DNA from: a virus
Length of the DNA: 27,988 nucleotides
Virus record (IMG/VR): IMGVR_UViG_3300046167_000349
Location: 1-27,988 of that record
Direction: 5' to 3' (one strand)
The notes beneath the pieces are model-generated. The model did not search any database. It worked only from the letters and a program-made list of their open reading frames with translations, and was not told the origin of the DNA. Numbering within the stretch: position 1 is the first letter of the stretch; each line of letters opens with the position of its first letter. Positions 1 to 25,871 of the stretch are shown here, piece by piece. Both the position numbers and the translations under genes were made by a program.

Positions 1-773
1 ATATTCAGACCTAGTGACCAAAATGTTAGAGTACCTGTATTCACAGAGGACACAGATAGCGTTTCTTTTCTATACAAAGGAGAGGTAAAACGAGTACAAA
101 GCATAAGCAGTAGCACAAACACTAACGGACAAATAGACTACATCACAGTATCAGGTGCTGACAATACAGACAATTACAAAGAACGTGTATTAGCAGACGG
201 TGGTGTACTTGAAGACAATAGCCTTTTAGATGCGTTTTTAGACAGCGTAGACATAGGCTTGGTAGACGAACTATATATCAATTCAGATAGTGGCACACAG
301 GTCGTTAAAATAAGCACAGAGCCTTGCTCAAAGTATGAGCCATACAAAGTTACGTTTCATTAACAAGTTTGGTGCATTACAGGATATGTACTTTAGCCTT
401 AAAAGCACTTGAGAGCCTAAACACCACAGGAGAAACCTACAAAGCAAATGTAGTAGACTTTAGCACACTAACATACGACACCTACAAACCCCAAGTAGCG
501 CAATACAACAAACTAGGAAAGGAAAGTATCACACTAAACACTAACTACATAAGTGAAGATTACAACGAAGTAATAAAGCAGCTTATGATGTCAGAGCAAG
601 TATGGCTTACTAGACTAGACAATCCTGCACCTGATAGCAACAATTTAGAAACAGTATTAGCTGTAATTCCTAAGACACGAAACGTAACATATAAAACAAG
701 TTTAAACGATAGACTTGTACAATACACAGTAGACTTTGATTATGCTTTTGACAAGATAAATACAGTAAGATAG
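1..773 (+). CDS. Seam-spanning phage structural (tail/neck) protein, 3' part, broken by two indels
   Basis: This is the C-terminal two thirds of a structural protein whose start is at 27596, at the other end of the window. The frame is open from base 1 and matches the frame leaving the window end. It is read in frame 1 to about 355, frame 2 to about 409 and frame 3 to the stop at 771-773. Dropping one T from TTT at 355-357 and one T from TT at 409-410 gives a smooth protein (VTFINKFGALQDMYF, then KSTESLNTTGETYK), which I recognise from a structural protein of flavobacterial phages. The joined gene would encode 387 residues. It sits between tail completion genes and a large tail protein and overlaps the next gene as TAGTG. 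Exact role unknown; a tail or baseplate component is inferred from position. Confidence 0.8.
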
Positions 774-15060: not shown

Positions 15061-15257
15061 TATATAGTTATATATATATATATATAGTTATATATAATAT
15101 TGATATATAGTATTAACAAGTATATAACATATAACTACTATATAACATCTACTATAAATAGCATATAACAATAAATAAAAACTACTATATAATAATTACT
15201 ATATATGTGTTCAAAAGTATATTTTTAGATGTTTAGAAGTAGGCTTATCTTTGGCAT
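15061..15257 (+). other. AT-rich intergenic spacer with repeats
   Basis: About 197 bases with almost no G or C, made of overlapping TATA, GTTATATA and ACTATATA words. AACTACTATATAA occurs exactly twice, at 15133-15145 and 15180-15192, 47 bases apart. The spacer separates late lysis genes from early genes. An easily melted replication origin, or a terminator and promoter region, is possible; no protein or RNA gene is seen. Confidence 0.6.
15246..15253 (+). promoter_or_regulatory. Host-type -7 box TATCTTTG before the first early gene
   Basis: TATCTTTG matches the Bacteroidota -7 consensus TAnnTTTG and ends only 4 nt before ATG 15258, so transcription would start at or next to the start codon (leaderless). 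A clear -33 box is not seen. Confidence 0.5.
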
Positions 15258-15916: not shown

Positions 15917-16186
15917 TTATAATTGTCTTTCTGAAACGTAAAGGTTAAAACCATTACACGCTTTTTTAATCTTCTCGTACAAGGCATAACCATTTGAGTT
16001 TGTAGATGTGCTGTAAAAATACCACCCATCATATTCTTTTATCATACCTATTTTCTTTGCTTCTCTCCAATTCATACCATTTGCACGTACTGAAATAAAT
16101 GAAGCGTCAAGATATTCTTCTTTGTGATTAGATTTTATAGTTTCTAACTCTGTTTTAAGGTTTTGGTAATCTGTAATTGTTTTCAT
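15917..16186 (-). CDS. Hypothetical protein on the opposite strand (moron-like)
   Basis: The only convincing minus-strand gene, 89 residues. The first half is helical (YQNLKTELETIKSNHKEEY), followed by FISVRANGMNWREAKKIG, DGWYFYSTST and a C-terminal helix. No DNA-binding, membrane or catalytic motif is seen. It has its own host-type promoter (16207-16237) and a shared terminator, the layout of a moron, a gene transcribed independently of the phage programme. The promoter and leader are closely related to those of the gene at 25171. It could affect host physiology or superinfection; that is inference. Confidence 0.8.
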   Translation of the reverse strand: MKTITDYQNLKTELETIKSNHKEEYLDASFISVRANGMNWREAKKIGMIKEYDGWYFYSTSTNSNGYALYEKIKKACNGFNLYVSERQL

Positions 16187-16206
16187 AATGTTTGTTTTTG
16201 TTAGTA

Positions 16207-16247
16207 CAAATATACAGCTTTTATTTTATTAACCAAATGTTTATAAA
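16207..16247 (-). promoter_or_regulatory. Host-type promoter for the minus-strand gene, repeated at 25111
   Basis: On the minus strand: -33 box TTTGG (16233-16237), 18 nt spacer, -7 box TATATTTG (16207-16214). The 20-base block at 16228-16247, TTTATAAACATTTGGTTAAT in gene orientation, is identical to 25111-25130, and both leaders end AACAAACATT next to the ATG. Confidence 0.75.
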
Positions 16248-16811: not shown

Positions 16812-17078
16812 ATGACTAAAACTTGGGTAGACGGATTGAGAATATTCGACAACAAACAGGAATGGATAGTTTGCGACATTAAAATAAATGCAGACGAGAT
16901 GATAAATTGGATTAACCAAAATAGAGCAAACGTCAACGAACGTGGTTCTATTCCGATTACGATAGCTAAAAGTGAGAAAGGATTGTACTCAATGCTTAAC
17001 ACTTATGAAGTACAGAAGTCAAAGGAAGTTACAACAGCACAACATTCTCCTGACAGAGAAGCAGATTTGCCTTTCTAA
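16812..17078 (+). CDS. Small protein with SSB-like C-terminal tip (DLPF)
   Basis: An 88-residue protein. The body begins MTKTWVDGLRIFDNK, followed by a segment with IKINADEMINWIN. The last residues are DREADLPF, matching the acidic, Phe-terminated tip of bacterial SSB (D/E-rich then IPF or LPF), which recruits helicases, nucleases and polymerase subunits. The body is shorter than SSB (usual length above 110) and has no clear OB fold, so it may mimic the SSB tip or be a small SSB-like protein. Its stop overlaps the start of the helicase gene (TAATG), consistent with working together with it. Confidence 0.75.
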   Translation: MTKTWVDGLRIFDNKQEWIVCDIKINADEMINWINQNRANVNERGSIPITIAKSEKGLYSMLNTYEVQKSKEVTTAQHSPDREADLPF

Positions 17079-17989
17079 TGCTTATACAGCTAGACAATCA
17101 CATAAAGAAGTTAGACGAATACCGAGCAGGGACTTTGAAAACAGGTCTCCGCTTGGGTATTCCTAGACTTGATGAACACTTTAGGTTTAAGTATGGGGAT
17201 TTTAATATCATACTAGGACACGCAAACGTAGGGAAAACATCTCTAGTCCTGTACCTAATGACACTATACGCTATGAAGCACGGCATTAAATGGCTTGTGT
17301 TTAGTAGTGAGAATGAGCCTTATTCTATTATAAGAAAAATAGTAGAATTTAGAGAGGGCAAACCAATAAACAAAATAGAGGAGACACACTACAAGGAGCA
17401 AGTAAAGTGGATTAACGAACACTTTAAATTTATTGATGGTTCAAAGCTATACACTTACAAATCACTACTAGATTTAGCACAACACGTGAAGAAGGCTTGG
17501 GATTATCAGGGGTTTTTATTAGACCCTTACAACTCACTAAACAAAGACAAAGATGTACTAAAGGGTATATCAGGACACGAGTACGATTACCAAGCAACAA
17601 GCGAGATACGAATATTCTGCAAAGAGAATAACATAAGTACTTGGGTTTGTACACACGCTGCTACACAAAGTTTAAGGGAAAGACACCATAAAGGACACTT
17701 TTATGAAGGACATCCTATACCACCTAGTGCAGCATCAGTTGAAGGTGGAGGTAAGTTTGTAAATAGGTGTGATAACTTTTTAGTGATACACAGATACATA
17801 TACCATCCTGCTGATTGGATGTATTCACACTTGCACATTAAGAAGATTAAAGACGTAGACACAGGTGGCAGACCTACACCAATGGAAGACCCTATTAGAC
17901 TAGAAAGCGTATTAAATAACGTAGGCTTTAACATAGAGGGTAAGAACCCTATACAATATCCTAAACGTGAGCAAATAGAATTACTGTGA
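17078..17989 (+). CDS. DnaB/RecA-type replicative helicase or ATPase
   Basis: A 303-residue RecA-fold ATPase without a primase domain. Walker A is GHANVGKT (47-54), with the preceding LGIPRLDEHFRFKYGDFNIILG; Walker B is FLLDP (146-150, D149). VFSSENEP (74-81) fits the helicase motif after Walker A. VCTHAATQ and SAASVEGGGKFVNRCDNFLVIHR fit the sensor and motif 3-4 regions of DnaB/Twinkle-like proteins. It would unwind DNA at the phage fork or act as a loader. It is short for DnaB (about 450) and lacks the N-terminal domain. It overlaps the SSB-tailed gene and the SET gene, so the three are co-translated. Confidence 0.85.
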   Translation: MLIQLDNHIKKLDEYRAGTLKTGLRLGIPRLDEHFRFKYGDFNIILGHANVGKTSLVLYLMTLYAMKHGIKWLVFSSENEPYSIIRKIVEFREGKPINKIEETHYKEQVKWINEHFKFIDGSKLYTYKSLLDLAQHVKKAWDYQGFLLDPYNSLNKDKDVLKGISGHEYDYQATSEIRIFCKENNISTWVCTHAATQSLRERHHKGHFYEGHPIPPSAASVEGGGKFVNRCDNFLVIHRYIYHPADWMYSHLHIKKIKDVDTGGRPTPMEDPIRLESVLNNVGFNIEGKNPIQYPKREQIELL

Positions 17990-18303
17990 ATTTCAAAAAT
18001 ACATACAGACCTTTACCAAAAAGCCTTACTATTAAAAAGTCAGGTATAGATGGTTTAGGTTTGTTTGCTATTGATGATATTGAAATAAGCACAGAACTAG
18101 GCATTACACATATAGACCTTTGGGATAATTGGATAAGAACACCATTAGGGGGGTTTATAAATCATTCTACATATCCAAACTGTTATATTAAAGAAATAAT
18201 TAAACAAGATAAAAAGTGTAGAGTTTTATATACTTTGCGAGATATAAATAAAAAAGAAGAACTTACAGTTTATTACAAAATAAAAGAGTATATTAACCAT
18301 TAA
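17986..18303 (+). CDS. SET-domain protein (putative lysine methyltransferase)
   Basis: A 105-residue protein starting at GTG, overlapping the helicase stop (GTGA). It is a compact SET domain. Seen: GLGLFA (23-28), TELGITHI (36-43), FINHSTYPNC (57-66) with the SAM-binding NHS triplet, and EELTVYY (91-97) in the position of the usual ELTxDY. SET enzymes transfer methyl groups from SAM to lysines. The length is close to the smallest known viral SET proteins. Pre-SET and post-SET cysteines are missing. The target is unknown; its place beside helicase and sigma-like genes suggests a replication or transcription protein, phage or host. Confidence 0.85.
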   Translation: MNFKNTYRPLPKSLTIKKSGIDGLGLFAIDDIEISTELGITHIDLWDNWIRTPLGGFINHSTYPNCYIKEIIKQDKKCRVLYTLRDINKKEELTVYYKIKEYINH

Positions 18304-18312
18304 ACAACCACA

Positions 18313-18810
18313 TTGATAACCGACATATTAACAAGCAAACACAATAAATGGATAAGTTATTGCCGTAGTTGGGGGTGTAACCCTGACACATCAGAGGATT
18401 TAGTACAAGAGATGTATCTTAAACTCCTAGTGCTTATACAGAACGGTATAGATATCTCGTATAAAGACGATATAAACGACTATTATATTTATAAGGTGCT
18501 TCGTAGTATGTTTTTAGATTTATGTCGTAAGGAGCAACGTACACAAGTTGTAGACCTAACAGACGATTACATAAAACACTTAATAGAAGAAAAGACAAAG
18601 GTAGAGTTAGAAGATGAAAAGATATTTGAAGAAGCCTTTGACAAAGTAAACCAAGCACTAAATGAGATGCATTGGTACGACAAAAAGGTATTTGAACTTG
18701 TACAGGACACTAACAATATATCAGCACTATCTAGGGAAACTAACATAGAGTATAGAAGCCTTTACAATACCTATCAGAAAGTTAAACGCAAAATAAAAGA
18801 GAAATTATGA
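18313..18810 (+). CDS. Sigma-70-like factor 1
   Basis: A 165-residue protein starting at TTG 18313. Residues about 10-76 fit sigma region 2 (WISYCRSWGCNPDTSEDLVQ, then EMYLKLL and YIYKVLRSMFLDLCRKEQR). Residues about 115-160 fit a region-4-like helix-turn-helix (FELVQDTNNISALSRETNIE, then YRSLYNTYQKVKRK). Length and layout are those of ECF-type sigma factors. It would direct RNA polymerase to phage promoters. The next gene overlaps its stop (ATGA) and is a paralogue. An anti-sigma factor is not seen. Alternatively it is a DNA-binding regulator derived from a sigma factor. Confidence 0.8.
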   Translation: MITDILTSKHNKWISYCRSWGCNPDTSEDLVQEMYLKLLVLIQNGIDISYKDDINDYYIYKVLRSMFLDLCRKEQRTQVVDLTDDYIKHLIEEKTKVELEDEKIFEEAFDKVNQALNEMHWYDKKVFELVQDTNNISALSRETNIEYRSLYNTYQKVKRKIKEKL

Positions 18811-19385
18811 TTGAACAAATATATAGAGATAGAAAAAAATGGTTAAGAATTGCAATGAGTTTTGGATTAAACAAACAAGACGCTGAAGATGTATTAAGCC
18901 ATATGTATTTAAAAATTTATCAAAAATTAAAAAAAGGTTATGATATATCTTACGAAGATGGTTATAATCATATGTATGTATATAAAGTTATTAAGTCAAA
19001 GTATATAGATTTATATAGAAAAAAACGAAGAATAAAAACTATGCTTTCTATGCGATTTGACAATGATGGGGATGTAGTTTTTTTACATAGTGATGGTCAA
19101 AGGCATATGAAAACAAAGCCTAAAAAAATTAGAGCAGAAAAAAATTTAGATTATGATTTATTTAGCAATGAATACAAAAAAATACTTAATAAATTAAAAA
19201 ACAACAAAAACAGTAGTTTATACAAATTACAGCAACACGTACACTATTTTGAAGAAATAAACAATATGGAAAAACCAAGCTTTACAAATTATTGTAAATT
19301 AAATAATGTAAAATACAGGGAGGTATATAACGGTTACCATATAGTTAAAGATATTTTAAAAAATGAAATGTTAGAATTAATATGA
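18807..19385 (+). CDS. Sigma-70-like factor 2, tandem paralogue
   Basis: A 192-residue protein with an ATGA overlap to the first sigma-like gene. Region 2 is clearly related to the first copy: W, then G, then DAEDVLSHMYLKIY and GYDISYEDG, YVYKVIKSKYIDLYRKKRR. The middle (80-130) is a lysine-rich insertion that copy 1 lacks. The C-terminus (about 160-190, NYCKLNNVKYREVYNGYH) aligns with the region 4 helix of copy 1. Codons are more AT-rich than those of copy 1, so one copy may have been acquired separately. It may recognise a different promoter or replace copy 1 later in infection. Confidence 0.75.
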   Translation: MIEQIYRDRKKWLRIAMSFGLNKQDAEDVLSHMYLKIYQKLKKGYDISYEDGYNHMYVYKVIKSKYIDLYRKKRRIKTMLSMRFDNDGDVVFLHSDGQRHMKTKPKKIRAEKNLDYDLFSNEYKKILNKLKNNKNSSLYKLQQHVHYFEEINNMEKPSFTNYCKLNNVKYREVYNGYHIVKDILKNEMLELI

Positions 19386-21058: not shown

Positions 21059-21829
21059 ATGATAACATTACTAAACGGAGAGAAGTGGGATAGGCAAGAG
21101 TTACTATCTAAAATGGATGATGATAGCTTTTACTATGGGCATTTAGGTAAACACGCATTAAGTAGCAGCAGCATTAAATTGTTACAGACAAGCCCAAAAA
21201 AATATCACTACATTACAAAGTACAGCAAGAACGAAACTTCACCTGCTTTACGTGCAGGGCATTTATTCCACACAGCTATACTAGAGCCTGAAAAATACAG
21301 CGAGATAAAATTCATAGACGTACAAAGTAGAAACGCTAAAAAGTTTAAGGAAGCAGTAGAGGAGTATGGAGAATGTTTTACAGCAAAAGAGCGTAGCGAA
21401 AACGAGAGGTTAATAGATGCTTTCTTTAAGAACGAACAAGCCTTGCAACTTATTACTGATTGCCAAACAGAAGTACCTGCTATTGGCAATATAGATATGA
21501 TGCCATTTAGAGGCAAAGCAGATGTATTAGGTAAGCAAGGTATAGTAGATTTAAAAACTACAACCGACATACGAGCATTCCCCTATTCAGCTAAAAAATA
21601 CGGTTATGATATACAAGTGTACATATACTGCCAACTATTTAACATACCTTATACAGAGTTTACATTTATAGCTTTAGACAAAGGCACACTAGACATAGCG
21701 ATATACGATGTATCAGAGGACTTCTATTTAGAGGGGGAACGCAAAACACTAGAAGCAATAGACAGATACAAGATGTTCTTCATAGAAGATGCAGACCTAG
21801 ATAGTTATACATTAAGAGGCACATTATGA
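21059..21829 (+). CDS. PD-(D/E)XK exonuclease, RecE/DUF3799-like
   Basis: A 256-residue protein of the phage-type RecB-like exonuclease group. Seen: SSSSIKLLQTSPKKYHY (35-51), LRAGHLFHTAILEPE (64-78), the catalytic set D155 (RGKADVL), D164 and K166 (IVDLKTTTD), and the QxxxY motif Q186-Y190 (YDIQVYIYC). It would chew 5' ends for recombination or replication repair. No annealing partner of the RecT or Beta type was recognised nearby, although the protein at 16408 is a candidate ssDNA binder. It overlaps the next gene by ATGATG. Confidence 0.85.
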   Translation: MITLLNGEKWDRQELLSKMDDDSFYYGHLGKHALSSSSIKLLQTSPKKYHYITKYSKNETSPALRAGHLFHTAILEPEKYSEIKFIDVQSRNAKKFKEAVEEYGECFTAKERSENERLIDAFFKNEQALQLITDCQTEVPAIGNIDMMPFRGKADVLGKQGIVDLKTTTDIRAFPYSAKKYGYDIQVYIYCQLFNIPYTEFTFIALDKGTLDIAIYDVSEDFYLEGERKTLEAIDRYKMFFIEDADLDSYTLRGTL

Positions 21830-22647
21830 TGAATATACATATATACACAAGAGACGAAAAAGCTAAAATAAAAATTAACAATACAGATTGGGTTTTTAAA
21901 AGCGAAAGAGGAAAAAACCTTGAGCAATCTATTATTGAATTTAATAAAACATTTAAAGAGTATGCTCACCATTATTTAGGTACAGATTTAAACAATAAAT
22001 ACACTCAATCAAGTATTGATGAATTAGAGTGTACATTGCTTATTGACCATATTTTAACTAAAAAAGATTTCGAAGATAATATAGGATGGTATGTGGAAAA
22101 AAACATTGAGGAGTGTTATTTTTATCAAGATGAGTATAGGAATGTAATTTTAGACCACATTCATTCTAGTGATGATTTTAAAACGAAAAGATTTTGGGCT
22201 GAACATTATAACAATCTTCGTTTAGGTTCTTTGGATAGTTTTTTAAGAGATTTTTACTTTTATAGTAAAGTTAAAAAAAAGTTATACTCTGAAAACTATG
22301 TAGATTTAGTTAAATATGATGAATATATTATATATCAAAACGAATACGTAAAGAAGTTAGTAGCTAAAAAACCGAAAGTTAAAAAGGTTAAAAAAAATAA
22401 TACTAAAAATAAAAAAACTTATATTCTTAAAGATAATAATACAGGTTATTACAAGATAGGTAAATCAATAAACCCATTAAATAGGGAGAAAACATTGCAG
22501 TCAGAAAAACCTACATACCAAATGATTAAGATTTTTGATAAAGATGTAGAATATGAATTACATAAAAAATATAATAATCAAAGGCAAAGAGGGGAATGGT
22601 TTAACCTAAATAATACACAAGTTAAATACATATGCACACACTATTAG
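21826..22647 (+). CDS. GIY-YIG (T5orf172/MUG113-type) protein
   Basis: A 273-residue protein. Residues about 1-180 are an unknown helical domain. A lysine-rich linker follows (about 183-200, KKPKVKKVKKNNTKNKK). The C-terminal part (199-273) has YILKDNNTGYYKIGKSINPL, then ELHKKYNNQRQRGEWFNL, which fits T5orf172, a GIY-YIG nuclease subgroup. It is more AT-rich in codons than its neighbours and breaks the run of recombination genes, which suggests late arrival, perhaps as a selfish or homing-type nuclease gene. The target is unknown. Confidence 0.8.
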   Translation: MMNIHIYTRDEKAKIKINNTDWVFKSERGKNLEQSIIEFNKTFKEYAHHYLGTDLNNKYTQSSIDELECTLLIDHILTKKDFEDNIGWYVEKNIEECYFYQDEYRNVILDHIHSSDDFKTKRFWAEHYNNLRLGSLDSFLRDFYFYSKVKKKLYSENYVDLVKYDEYIIYQNEYVKKLVAKKPKVKKVKKNNTKNKKTYILKDNNTGYYKIGKSINPLNREKTLQSEKPTYQMIKIFDKDVEYELHKKYNNQRQRGEWFNLNNTQVKYICTHY

Positions 22648-22648
22648 T

Positions 22649-22783
22649 ATGAAACGATTTATAAGCGATATGGAAACCATACAACTAGCAATTAAGCTAG
22701 GAGATTATGAAGATGCTTTACAAATGCTACAAGAGGTTAAAGAAGAAATGATTATATTAGATGCTTTAAACTATGATGCGTAA
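22649..22783 (+). CDS. Small helical protein
   Basis: A 44-residue ORF one base after the GIY-YIG stop. It is a charged helical hairpin (LAIKLGDYEDALQMLQEVKE). The last 11 bases overlap the next ORF. Function unknown. Confidence 0.55.
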   Translation: MKRFISDMETIQLAIKLGDYEDALQMLQEVKEEMIILDALNYDA

Positions 22784-22952
22784 GACTACACTAATAAAAA
22801 GTTATGCCTACTTTAAAGGCGAACTACAAAGAGCATACGAAAACACAAACGAGAAACTAATAAACTATTATACAGATGAAATACAAAAACTTCTTACTAA
22901 ATACTACACAAAGAAACAGGGAGAACATACAACATCTAAAAACTTTGATTGA
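22773..22952 (+). CDS. Small protein upstream of the DnaA-like gene
   Basis: A 59-residue ORF, with ATGATG inside the end of the gene before it. It is helical and lysine-rich (RKTTLIKSYAYFKGELQRAY, then KLLTKYYTKKQGE). It overlaps the DnaA-like gene by 77 bases in another frame, more than other overlaps here, so its end may be misjudged. Function unknown. Confidence 0.5.
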   Translation: MMRKTTLIKSYAYFKGELQRAYENTNEKLINYYTDEIQKLLTKYYTKKQGEHTTSKNFD

Positions 22953-23376
22953 GAAGCAAACAGGAAAAGACATAACAATAAACACTAGACACAGAGAAAT
23001 AGTATTTGCAAGAAAGATATACTACAAGATACTTACCCTAACTACCAAGATGAGTTACAAGTCTATTGGAGATACACTAGGGCAGACACACGCAACTGTA
23101 ATACACGCACTAAACAACTTTGATTGGGATTATAACCATAACCCTGCATTTAAAGAGGCATACGATAGGGTATACAACTTGTACACTAAAAAGGGTACTG
23201 TTGCTACTGTTGAAACAATGGTGTACGAAAACAGAGTACTAGAAGAAAAGATAGTTGAACTAAAAGGTCAGATAGACGAATTGAGAAACGAGTTAAAAGA
23301 AACACGTAGAAACAATATAAGACCTAGAAACCAAGAAGCAACTATATACAACGCATCAGAAACAGTAATACTATGA
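22876..23376 (+). CDS. DnaA domain-IV-like DNA-binding protein
   Basis: A 166-residue protein without the AAA+ part of DnaA. Residues about 34-85 fit DnaA domain IV: RHREIVFARKIYYKIL, then MSYKSIGDTLGQTHATVIHAL, with THATVIHA in place of the DnaA signature DHTTVLHA. The C-terminal half is a coiled coil (about 115-155, VLEEKIVELKGQIDELRNEL). It could mark a phage origin and recruit the helicase at 17078, or block host initiation by competing for DnaA boxes. It is the last large early gene before two membrane micro-genes and the terminase block. Confidence 0.85.
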   Translation: MKYKNFLLNTTQRNRENIQHLKTLIEKQTGKDITINTRHREIVFARKIYYKILTLTTKMSYKSIGDTLGQTHATVIHALNNFDWDYNHNPAFKEAYDRVYNLYTKKGTVATVETMVYENRVLEEKIVELKGQIDELRNELKETRRNNIRPRNQEATIYNASETVIL

Positions 23377-23468
23377 AAAAAGCAATACACATAATAGCAA
23401 TTATATGGGCTGCCTTTCTAACAATAGGAGTAATAGGTGGAGCGATTGAAATAATAATAAACTTATGA
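23373..23468 (+). CDS. Single-span membrane micro-protein 1
   Basis: A 31-residue ORF that overlaps the DnaA-like stop (ATGA). After MKKA it is nearly all hydrophobic (IHIIAIIWAAFLTIGVIGG), so one membrane span is expected. The next micro-gene starts in its stop. Function unknown. Confidence 0.6.
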   Translation: MKKAIHIIAIIWAAFLTIGVIGGAIEIIINL

Positions 23469-23557
23469 AAATAAACCATACAAAAATATTAGCTTGGATA
23501 GTAATAGGAATTATGACAATAGCTATTTGGAACAGCATATATAATTTAGTGTTTTAA
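23465..23557 (+). CDS. Single-span membrane micro-protein 2
   Basis: A 30-residue ORF with ATGA overlap. It has a basic start (MKINHTK) and a span (ILAWIVIGIMTIAIW). Together with the gene before it, it makes a pair of tiny membrane peptides at the end of the early operon; superinfection exclusion or lysis timing is possible. Confidence 0.6.
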   Translation: MKINHTKILAWIVIGIMTIAIWNSIYNLVF

Positions 23558-23573
23558 AAAAGTAAACTAATTA

Positions 23574-23585
23574 CGTTATACTTAT
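23574..23585 (+). promoter_or_regulatory. Late motif copy 4, CGTTATACTTAT
   Basis: Lies 32 nt before the terminase small subunit ATG, in the first non-coding gap after the early operon. It is identical to the copy at 8444. Because it is not next to an ATG here, it must act by transcription rather than translation. Confidence 0.65.
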
Positions 23586-23617
23586 AAGCGGTTTACAATA
23601 ACTTAATACGCTTAACT

Positions 23618-23980
23618 ATGTACGACACTAAAGAACTAGAAAGAAAATCACTAGAAGCCATTAAAGAGCATAAACTGATGTTTATAGAACACGTAGTTGC
23701 TTATTTACCCTGTTCAAAGCCTACTTTTTATGAGCATAAACTTAACGAACTTAACAGCATAAAAAAGGCGATAGAAGAAAATAGAACTGTTAAGAAAGTA
23801 GCTTTACTTAATAATTGGATTACAACTGAAGCCGCACCTGTATTGCAAATAGCAGCTATGAAGATGATTAGTAGTGATGAAGAAGCGCACAGGCTAAATG
23901 GTACAAAGCGTGAGATAAAGCACGACACAAAACAAAAGAGTTTTAAGGTAGAAGTGATTGACCACAATACAAGTAAATAA
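23618..23980 (+). CDS. Terminase small subunit
   Basis: A 120-residue protein before the large subunit. The middle has a helix-turn-helix-like element, VAYLPCSKPTFYEHKLNELN (29-51), which I recognise from small terminases of Bacteroidota phages, followed by a helical oligomerisation region (60-90) and a basic tail (KREIKHDTKQKSFK). It binds the packaging start site and loads the large subunit. The overlap with the next gene is 23 bases. Confidence 0.8.
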   Translation: MYDTKELERKSLEAIKEHKLMFIEHVVAYLPCSKPTFYEHKLNELNSIKKAIEENRTVKKVALLNNWITTEAAPVLQIAAMKMISSDEEAHRLNGTKREIKHDTKQKSFKVEVIDHNTSK

Positions 23981-25109
23981 AGTATACAACCATCTAACCA
24001 ACTCTAATAAGAAGATAACATTAGAAGTGGGTGGAACTAGGAGCGGTAAGACATACAATGTTCTACTGTGGATTATTCTACACTATTGCCAACACAACGA
24101 AAACAAAACGATTACTATATGCCGTAAGACATTCCCTGCTGTACGTGCTACTGTGATGCGAGACTTCCTAGAGATACTCAAACGTATGGACTTATACGAC
24201 GAGCAGCACCACAACAAGTCAAATCACGAGTATAAGCTAGACAGTAACCTCATAGAGTTTATATCATTAGACCAACCACAAAAGGTAAGAGGACGTAAAA
24301 GAGATTTACTTTTCGCCAATGAGATGAATGAACTGACATTTGAAGATTGGCAGCAGTTGGTATTTAGAACAACAGACAAGATAGTAGGAGACCTTAACCC
24401 TTCTGATGAGTACCATTGGATATGGGAGAAGCTAGAGCAAAGGGAAGATGTAGAAATATACAACACTACCTACCTAGACAATCCATTCCTAGACGATAGC
24501 ATAAGAAGCGAGATAGAACTACTAAAAGACACAGATGAGAACTATTGGCGTATATATGGACTTGGGCAAAGAGCAATTAGCAAAGCAACTATATTCAAAT
24601 ACACGGAGATTGATAGCATACCTGACGATGCACAGCTTGTGGCTTATGGGATGGACTTTGGATTTAACGACCCTACTACACTTGTTGCAACATACAAGAA
24701 AGACCACAACCTATACTTTAAAGAAATGCTATACAGGTCAAAGATGACAACAGAGGACATACACCAATATCTAAAAGGAGTAGAGGTATTAGGTATGACT
24801 TATGCTGATAGCGCAAGACCTGAAATAATAGAACAGCTGCGTAGATACGGACACAAGGTAATGAAGTCTTATAAGGGTGCTAATTCTGTACTAGCAGGGA
24901 TAGACCTACTCAAAAGGTATAAACTCCACGTAACAAAGGATAGCGAGAATATGATAAAAGAGTTTAGAAGCTATAAGTGGAAAGAAGATAGAGCAGGTAG
25001 AATAACTAACGTACCTGAAGATTTACACAACCACACACTTGATGCAGCTAGGTATAGTTGCTACTCTATATTAAGCAAGCCTAACTTTGGTAAGTACTAT
25101 ATACATTAG
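23958..25109 (+). CDS. Terminase large subunit
   Basis: A 383-residue packaging motor protein. Start at TTG 23958. The ATPase domain has Walker A GGTRSGKT (25-32) and Walker B LLFANE (117-122). The nuclease domain has YGMDFGFNDPT (230-240, D233), YADSARPEI (282-290, D284) and HTLDAARY (359-366, D362), the three acidic residues of the RNase H-like site. It packs DNA into the prohead and cuts it. It is a little shorter than most (about 420-500). Follows the small subunit with overlap, as in most tailed phages. Confidence 0.95.
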   Translation: MTTIQVNKVYNHLTNSNKKITLEVGGTRSGKTYNVLLWIILHYCQHNENKTITICRKTFPAVRATVMRDFLEILKRMDLYDEQHHNKSNHEYKLDSNLIEFISLDQPQKVRGRKRDLLFANEMNELTFEDWQQLVFRTTDKIVGDLNPSDEYHWIWEKLEQREDVEIYNTTYLDNPFLDDSIRSEIELLKDTDENYWRIYGLGQRAISKATIFKYTEIDSIPDDAQLVAYGMDFGFNDPTTLVATYKKDHNLYFKEMLYRSKMTTEDIHQYLKGVEVLGMTYADSARPEIIEQLRRYGHKVMKSYKGANSVLAGIDLLKRYKLHVTKDSENMIKEFRSYKWKEDRAGRITNVPEDLHNHTLDAARYSCYSILSKPNFGKYYIH

Positions 25110-25110
25110 T

Positions 25111-25152
25111 TTTATAAACATTTGGTTAATTAAAATATAGTTTATATATTAG
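25111..25152 (+). promoter_or_regulatory. Host-type promoter, repeated copy of the one at 16207-16247
   Basis: -33 box TTTGG at 25121-25125, 19 nt spacer, -7 box TATATTAG at 25145-25152 (one mismatch to TAnnTTTG). The 20-base block 25111-25130 is identical to the minus-strand copy, and the leader ends AACAAACATT next to ATG 25171. Confidence 0.7.
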
Positions 25153-25170
25153 CACTATAAAACAAACATT

Positions 25171-25410
25171 ATGGAAACACTTAATAAACATCACAGAGAA
25201 ATATTTGTAGGTAAATTAAAAGACCTATTTGATAAGAAAGATATGTTGCAAAGTTTCTCCTTTAGAATGTTAAAGGATAAGCAAGATGCAAAATCTGAAA
25301 GAGAACAAGATGCGTGTCAAGCAAGTATTGATAGTACTGAACTTGAAATAGAATTTGTACAAGACCAAATTGAACGCATACAAGATATACTAATTAACAA
25401 TCACTTATAA
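25171..25410 (+). CDS. Hypothetical coiled-coil protein under a host-type promoter
   Basis: A 79-residue charged helical protein (EIFVGKLKDLFDKKDMLQSF, QDACQASIDSTELEIEFVQD). It has its own promoter, shared almost word for word with the minus-strand gene at 15917-16186. It opens a run of five micro-genes ending at the terminator at 25859. The layout resembles a moron cassette inserted between terminase and tail genes. Function unknown. Confidence 0.75.
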   Translation: METLNKHHREIFVGKLKDLFDKKDMLQSFSFRMLKDKQDAKSEREQDACQASIDSTELEIEFVQDQIERIQDILINNHL

Positions 25411-25526
25411 TGAAACGTAAGATAGAAAACTTTATATTTGACACAATTATATACGTAGCTGCTTTTGGACTAGTATGTACGTTTTGCCAACTATGCGCAC
25501 ACGCTGATAAGTGGATGGGGTTATGA
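25410..25526 (+). CDS. Small membrane protein with Cys cluster
   Basis: A 38-residue ORF, ATG overlapping the previous stop (TAATG). One hydrophobic span (IIYVAAFGLVCTFCQLCAH) with three cysteines. Next ORF starts at its stop. Function unknown. Confidence 0.55.
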   Translation: MKRKIENFIFDTIIYVAAFGLVCTFCQLCAHADKWMGL

Positions 25527-25603
25527 AAGATTTAAAACTTTTTATAGTGGTTATTCTGACACTAACATTTTTAGTTTGGTCTAAACATTACTTGGGGATA
25601 TGA
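25523..25603 (+). CDS. Single-span membrane micro-protein
   Basis: A 26-residue ORF with ATGA overlap on both sides. Basic start (MKDLK) and one span (LFIVVILTLTFLVW). Too small to judge by itself; the regular overlaps support it. Confidence 0.5.
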   Translation: MKDLKLFIVVILTLTFLVWSKHYLGI

Positions 25604-25722
25604 TAGTAGAAATAGGAAACAAACACTTTAGAGATACAGGGGAAACTATGCAAGAGGTATATTGGAATGAAACCTTTGAGGAGTGGACACCTGTACTTTG
25701 GGAACAACAAATGGAGATATGA
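25600..25722 (+). CDS. Small acidic protein
   Basis: A 40-residue ORF between two ATGA overlaps. It has many aromatic and acidic residues (TMQEVYWNETFEEWTPVLW). Function unknown. Confidence 0.55.
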   Translation: MIVEIGNKHFRDTGETMQEVYWNETFEEWTPVLWEQQMEI

Positions 25723-25871
25723 AACTACATAAACTACACACAGGGGTTATAATAACTCACATACACACAGACATAGGGATAAGCGTAAAGGCTAGACATC
25801 CTAAAGACAAGGACTATAAAGTGTGGGAATTACTACACAGAACACAAGAATTTTACAGAGGGCTTTTATAG
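25719..25871 (+). CDS. Small basic His-rich protein
   Basis: A 50-residue ORF starting at the ATGA overlap at 25719. It has five His in the first 16 residues (KLHKLHTGVIITHIHTD) and HPKDKDYKVWELLHRTQEF. Its stop lies inside the terminator hairpin at 25859. Function unknown. Confidence 0.6.
   Translation: MKLHKLHTGVIITHIHTDIGISVKARHPKDKDYKVWELLHRTQEFYRGLL

Follow-up and report, generated by a model that had tools for sequence, protein, structure and literature searches.

A stand-alone DnaA domain IV protein with altered recognition residues in a phage lineage: a candidate origin-binding dimer

In the viral sequence analyzed here (IMG/VR record IMGVR_UViG_3300046167_000349, positions 1 to 27,988, the whole stretch of 27,988 nucleotides being hereafter the window), which belongs to a small marine bacterial virus, we identified a gene that encodes a DnaA domain IV without the rest of DnaA, followed by a predicted coiled coil and, at the C-terminus, a conserved peptide (Table 1). 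Half of the residues with which this domain reads DnaA boxes are changed. We propose, with close to an even chance of being right, that the protein is a phage-encoded, AAA+-free origin-binding dimer, with phage-specific repeats as its sites. Under this proposal, the C-terminal coil would hold the DnaA-type domain IV as a dimer, probably a parallel one, which would bind phage-specific repeats, most likely those of the AT-rich array located before the early operon. The bound dimer would mark the phage origin and assist in recruiting the DnaB-like helicase of the phage, for which the C-terminal peptide may be the contact, with priming and synthesis carried out by host enzymes.

Table 1. Features of the window discussed in the text
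Feature	Position	Strand	Basis
Stand-alone DnaA domain IV protein, 166 aa	22876..23376	+	profile, fold, selection
DnaA domain IV fold, residues 16-108	22921..23199	+	VIA-align to 3pvp (16..108) and 1j1v (16..105)
QTHATVIH, residues 70-77, start of recognition helix (E. coli 432-439)	23083..23106	+	alignment to 1j1v
Predicted coiled coil, residues 112-143, N119 at 'a'	23209..23304	+	heptads, model helix 112-147
Conserved C-terminal peptide IRPRNQEATIY, residues 148-158	23317..23349	+	comparison of relatives
59-aa out-of-frame ORF that overlaps the 5' end of the DnaA-IV gene	22773..22952	+	
PDDEXK exonuclease (exonuclease VIII-like), upstream syntenic marker	21059..21829	+	
Presumed small terminase, 120 aa, encoded immediately ahead of the large terminase	23618..23980	+	position only
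Large terminase subunit (TerL), downstream syntenic marker	23958..25109	+	
303-aa protein with a DnaB-like helicase domain, presumed partner acting downstream	17078..17989	+	
AT-rich conserved noncoding spacer, candidate binding region or origin	15061..15257	.	conservation, repeats
Promoter-like TATCTTTG	15246..15253	+	invariant in 13 aligned sequences

Domain architecture and occurrence in other phages

The original prediction, made from the sequence alone, described a stand-alone DnaA domain IV that lacks the AAA+ domain and is fused to a coiled coil, and this description was borne out in all three parts. A profile search matched residues 30-80 to Bac_DnaA_C (PF08299; E=1e-10; score 41.9 bits, cut-off 31.5), the single such match in the whole 27,988-base record; of DnaA, the 166-aa protein holds the C-terminal domain alone and no AAA+ domain. 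The AlphaFold2 model built from 30 sequences had a mean pLDDT of 80, with 83 residues at 90 or above (a model from only 15 close relatives was poor, with a pLDDT of 45). The top rows of the VIA-align 2 ranking were DnaA DNA-binding domains (3pvp, Z 14.5; 1j1v, Z 13.9; 8btg, Z 12.9), the best non-DnaA row scoring Z 6.3; Foldseek by itself returned nothing from the PDB at E≤0.001, its best hit being 3pvp at 7.5e-3. In the predicted coil, LIVM residues occupy seven of eight a/d positions (28-residue window from residue 112), a score matched by 37 of 5000 shuffles of residues 105-150. Position 'a' is mostly I, V or L and position 'd' is L or M, the asparagine at 'a' being as in parallel dimeric zippers.

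The ORF is a real gene under purifying selection, with dN/dS, for the window versus 15 relatives, at 0.08 for domain IV and 0.24 for the coil. Synonymous change is low where the gene overlaps the 59-aa ORF (pS 0.093, versus 0.247 in domain IV).

Loci in IMG/VR, annotated cultured phages and published mentions together indicate that proteins of this kind are known and widespread. A pattern scan of IMG/VR yielded at least 80 loci, and 73 of the 80 listed hold stand-alone domain IV ORFs of 98-214 aa, seven having been dropped by eye as not DnaA-IV (L049, L056, L057, L062, L103, L116 and L121). The 73 form 38 clusters at 60% identity and, all having been chosen by a DH[AST]TV-type pattern, carry the D by construction. 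None of these kept loci listed encodes a full-length DnaA, with the frame open upstream in L081, L107 and L114, where an AAA+ part is possible. Annotated versions occur in cultured phages, for example Nonlabens P12024L, Flavobacterium tooticki/mumin, Tenacibaculum Gundel_1 and Olleya Harreka_1, and a stand-alone DnaA-C protein is present in Pelagibacter HTVC034P and the HTVC010P group. DnaA is given among the proteins common to all HTVC010P-related genomes in a passage of Chen et al. 2019 (PMC6811365), and a passage of PMC4615864 names a 'replication initiation protein DnaA' in a Polaribacter phage. Marine phages widely encode stand-alone DnaA-C proteins, which carry the label 'replication initiation' by homology; we found no functional test of them in the open-licence literature. 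No prophage relative was confirmed in genome contigs, where 367 stretches matched a pattern and none proved to be a relative.

In other phages, a scan of 20 large neighboring ORFs identified, within three ORFs of the gene, a DnaB-type helicase (L078, L080, L110 and L118), a primase-like protein (L068 and L079), VapE (L093) and a DNA polymerase A (L050). Furthermore, genes annotated as a primosomal protein and a DNA replication protein adjoin the DnaA-C gene in Gundel_1, and a primase/helicase is encoded near it in Nekkels_1.

Recognition residues, DnaA boxes and the C-terminal peptide

Aligned to E. coli domain IV (1j1v numbering, 374-467), residues R38, R46, K62, Q70 and T71 of the window protein are equivalent to R399, R407, P423, R432 and D433, and H72, A73, T74 and H77 to H434, T435, T436 and H439; the translation of ORF 22876-23376 contains QTHATVIHAL. 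Passages of PMC7561715 and PMC5043019 on box recognition give R399, P423, D433, H434, T435 and H439 as the base-contacting set, the latter terming the 433-434 dyad highly conserved, and a passage of PMC5742627 reports that the substitutions R399A and T435M make E. coli DnaA defective for box binding. The expectation that the box-binding residues are present held for three of these six contacts (R399, H434 and H439, as R38, H72 and H77) and failed for the other three (P423 to K62, D433 to T71 and T435 to A73), which makes it less likely that the protein reads DnaA boxes but leaves its assignment to domain IV unaffected. The motif DHTTV is found in all of the cellular DnaAs aligned (E. coli, M. 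tuberculosis, B. subtilis and Aquifex).

The same position varies among the relatives. In 59 distinct related domains, gathered via the exonuclease or the tail without using the recognition motif, residue 433 is N in 28, H in 13, T in 11, D in 6 and K in 1, as tallied by a regular expression; in the residue-by-residue alignment, some rows of loci with an insertion are misaligned (KDmhHATV reads as D). D433 is thus lost in 53 of the 59. Residue 435 is A in all 52 domains with N, H or T at 433, and in the six D433 domains it is A, T or S, two of each. The equivalents of R399, R407 and H434 are retained in 39/39 distinct exonuclease-linked domains. The variation at 433 and 435 over the 59 domains points to a recognition code that is altered and still changing.

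DnaA boxes are enriched neither in the window nor in 38 non-redundant loci with such proteins: TTATCCACA with at most one mismatch occurs 6 times in the window (8.2 expected), TTWTNCACA 3 times (4.8 expected), and TTATNCACA 16 times in the 38 loci (26.0 expected). A special depletion of boxes was considered and rejected, given that TTATnCACA comes only 59th among 560 permuted words. The suggestion that the protein binds or titrates DnaA boxes therefore found no backing, with boxes not enriched and D433 replaced in the lineage. Taken together, the three changed contacts, the lack of box enrichment and the loss of D433 in 53 of 59 domains indicate that host DnaA boxes are probably not what the protein reads; the sites that it marks are probably on the viral DNA and not on that of the host.

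These data also bear on a highly improbable alternative, in which the protein competes with host DnaA by covering host boxes and so blocks host initiation or DnaA-controlled genes. A domain IV fold without AAA+ would indeed be dominant negative, and a phage genome without box enrichment is compatible with such a role; however, the changes at P423, D433 and T435, considered with the box-binding defects of R399A and T435M quoted above from PMC5742627, argue against it, as does the loss of D433 in most related domains even though DHTTV is common to the aligned cellular DnaAs. A protein that targets a near-universal box should not drift at residue 433.

At the C-terminus, the consensus of the relatives is I-x-P-R-N-Q-Q-[AT]-[TK]-[IV]-Y (IxPRNQQxxxY; the window has QE), starting 12-21 residues before the protein end. 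This peptide, described here for the first time, was found only on these DnaA-IV proteins: all 34 distinct peptide contexts among the loci gathered up to that point lie within DnaA-IV ORFs, and in an IMG/VR peptide scan with 107 matching stretches, each of the 80 loci listed (64 distinct) has one DnaA-IV ORF with the peptide. The recognition motif is present in 59 of the 64 distinct ORFs, the other five being fragments of 35-89 aa that lie no more than ~250 bases from the upstream edge of the available DNA. The peptide is missing from the clade with H at residue 71 (the equivalent of D433) and from L058, L064, L090 and L123. The coil is not universal either: in the clade with N at 71, the middle region is a different, non-coil sequence and the peptide persists. 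A search of cultured phages with the 25-aa tail gave no match. A docking peptide would be the natural reading of such a conserved tail. A beta-clamp motif was considered and set aside: Q154 is E in the window and some relatives, with the preceding P-R-N-Q kept.

Gene place and the AT-rich spacer

The DnaA-IV gene has a fixed place between the exonuclease and TerL, a new observation that holds in 39/39 relatives that could be scored, that is, loci holding both markers. The exonuclease led to 61 new loci, of which 22 without TerL downstream were excluded from the 39; DnaA-IV is present in 11 of these 22. Distant phages keep the order exonuclease, DnaA-IV, small gene, TerL. This place could suggest a packaging accessory, a DNA-binding terminase partner that marks the packaging site, particularly as the gene lies two to three genes before the terminase in L058, L064, L066, L073, L081, L090, L095, L106 and L123. 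We consider this role improbable: another small gene, ahead of the terminase, already has the position expected of the small subunit, the gene sits away from terminase genes in annotated phages, TerL is found in 13 of the 73 motif-selected loci (many of them short), and the synteny may reflect plain vertical inheritance.

Within this conserved order, the protein itself is variable. Identities of exonuclease, TerL and DnaA-IV to those of the window are 94, 95 and 44% in L194, 92, 97 and 45% in L195, and 79, 93 and 48% in L202, and L196 (exonuclease 88%, TerL 91%) has a DnaA-IV that lacks both the coil pattern and the tail. DnaA-IV evolves or is replaced faster than the genes on either side, as would be expected of a specificity determinant.

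The recognized genes of the window lie almost all on the plus strand. In L002, L013 and L026, the match runs to the window end (27988), is followed by 9 bases and resumes at the window start, so that the window probably represents a phage genome that is nearly complete and circularly permuted. Beside DnaA-IV, a GIY-YIG/T5orf172-type gene (21826-22647) is absent from some relatives (L007 joins 21829 to 22648) and is likely a mobile insertion. Directly 3' of the helicase lies a SET-domain gene (17986-18303) present in some relatives only. Two adjacent sigma-70 region 2-like genes (18313-18810 and 18807-19385; Pfam E 6e-5 and 1e-4, narrowly missing the cut-off; RNA polymerase sigma factor by PHROG) are retained in many relatives. 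Promoter-like elements at 25111-25183 (plus strand) and 16174-16247 (minus strand), 82.7% identical over 75 columns, form an inverted pair, the first preceding a plus-strand gene at 25171 and the second a minus-strand ORF (15917-16186), with matching copies in relatives. The stretch 25407-25724 was rejected as a conserved noncoding block, its reading frames suggesting small ORFs; the small-ORF block at 25407-25593 is duplicated in L002 (99% identical over 200 bases).

The AT-rich spacer, earlier put forward as a candidate origin, is a constrained noncoding element that bears repeats. In 13 sequences, 177 of its 197 columns are invariant, and its p-distance of 0.043, compared with 0.129 for the four-fold sites in three genes nearby, corresponds to threefold conservation beyond those sites. 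The spacer holds 6 of the 12 genome-wide copies of ACTATATA/TATATAGT and 6 of the 17 of ATATAAC/GTTATAT, and none of 1000 dinucleotide shuffles reached the six copies of its top C/G-containing 8-mer. It ends, ahead of the early operon, in the promoter-like element, which resembles the Bacteroidota -7 promoter element. The same words occur in the spacers of the more distant L200 and L204 (ACTATATA 4 versus 0.8 expected), a comparison of homologous DNA with words picked after viewing the spacer. Rfam and tRNA searches returned nothing.

Phages of the N71 clade have another AT array at the spacer position, and those of the H71 clade a pyrimidine tract. In L216 (4970-5410), L217, L219, L227 and L234, all with H at 71, this pyrimidine-rich tract of TTTCTTTCTTTTT repeats replaces the AT spacer. 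The constraint on the spacer and its repeats are likewise new observations, as is the difference in the noncoding element at this position between clades with different recognition helices, and the agreement of element type with clade and residue 71, seen over four groups, is suggestive.

The proposed origin-binding function is supported by the retention of the R399, R407 and H434 equivalents in 39/39 domains, by the replication-module neighbors in other phages, by the constrained spacer with its repeats, and by the early ORFs scanned, among which no polymerase or primase was recognized. It is weakened by the cousin G001 (helicase 47% identical, DnaA-IV present), whose homologous spacer has neither AT-repeat array nor pyrimidine tract, and by GC skew, which is positive throughout the window with no switch. 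In the window lineage, moreover, the gene adjoins the terminase rather than the helicase, the repeat words were chosen post hoc and L200 and L204 are homologous in this DNA, and AT repeats beside a promoter could serve transcription.

The last point leads to a rather unlikely but sizable alternative, namely, that the dimer is a transcription regulator which, at the repeats upstream of the early promoter or at sites at the early/late boundary, switches phage expression. The array directly upstream of an invariant promoter-like element is consistent with this, as are the position of DnaA-IV as the last recognized gene before the terminase genes and a dimeric HTH with fast-changing specificity, which suits a repressor; DnaA itself is also a transcription factor, with activator and repressor roles reviewed in PMC8203912. 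On the other hand, homologs elsewhere often lie beside helicases, primases and polymerases, and no repeat or operator-like array was found around the gene itself (22500-24100). An origin binder and a regulator predict the same binding site.

Going beyond the origin-binding dimer, we consider it possible, if doubtful, that the lineage carries a replication-specificity cassette without an AAA+ motor. The recognition helix would be re-specified by clade (T71, N71, H71 or D), with a matching noncoding element, be it AT repeats, a different AT array or the pyrimidine tract, at a constant position ahead of the early operon, and IxPRNQQxxxY would dock to a common replication partner and so hand the bound origin over to it. 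If true, this would show how related phages come to differ in origin recognition when the AAA+ part of DnaA is absent. The lineage offers handles in its off-code recognition helix, its constrained repeat element as a candidate site, and its conserved peptide as a candidate docking motif.

Comparison with known systems

Bacterial DnaA domain IV (PF08299; E. coli 1J1V, M. tuberculosis 3PVP, B. subtilis 8BTG) has the same fold as residues 16-108 of the window protein, and the equivalents of R399, R407, H434, T436 and H439 are common to both. In contrast to bacterial DnaA, the window protein lacks domains I-III, is changed at P423, D433 and T435, and has the coil and the peptide added. It resembles the stand-alone DnaA-C proteins of other phages in size, in its single domain IV and in its phage location; six aligned cultured-phage proteins are 22-25% identical to it, none of the six shows the PRNQQ peptide, and four keep the DH dyad.

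By analogy, the function proposed here would liken the protein to lambda O, as a small phage DNA-binding protein with origin repeats and helicase hand-over. Lambda O binds repeats that lie inside the O gene and contacts the helicase or its loader; the window DnaA-IV gene has no repeat array inside it, and the analyses run recognized no relationship between the two. Finally, the TnpA-REP-type HUH proteins, with a C-terminal Bac_DnaA_C-like domain, illustrate the reuse of DnaA-C outside DnaA, as presented in a passage of PMC6006769, whose authors note there that the flanking repeats are unlike DnaA boxes; in these proteins, unlike in the window protein, DnaA-C is fused to an endonuclease.
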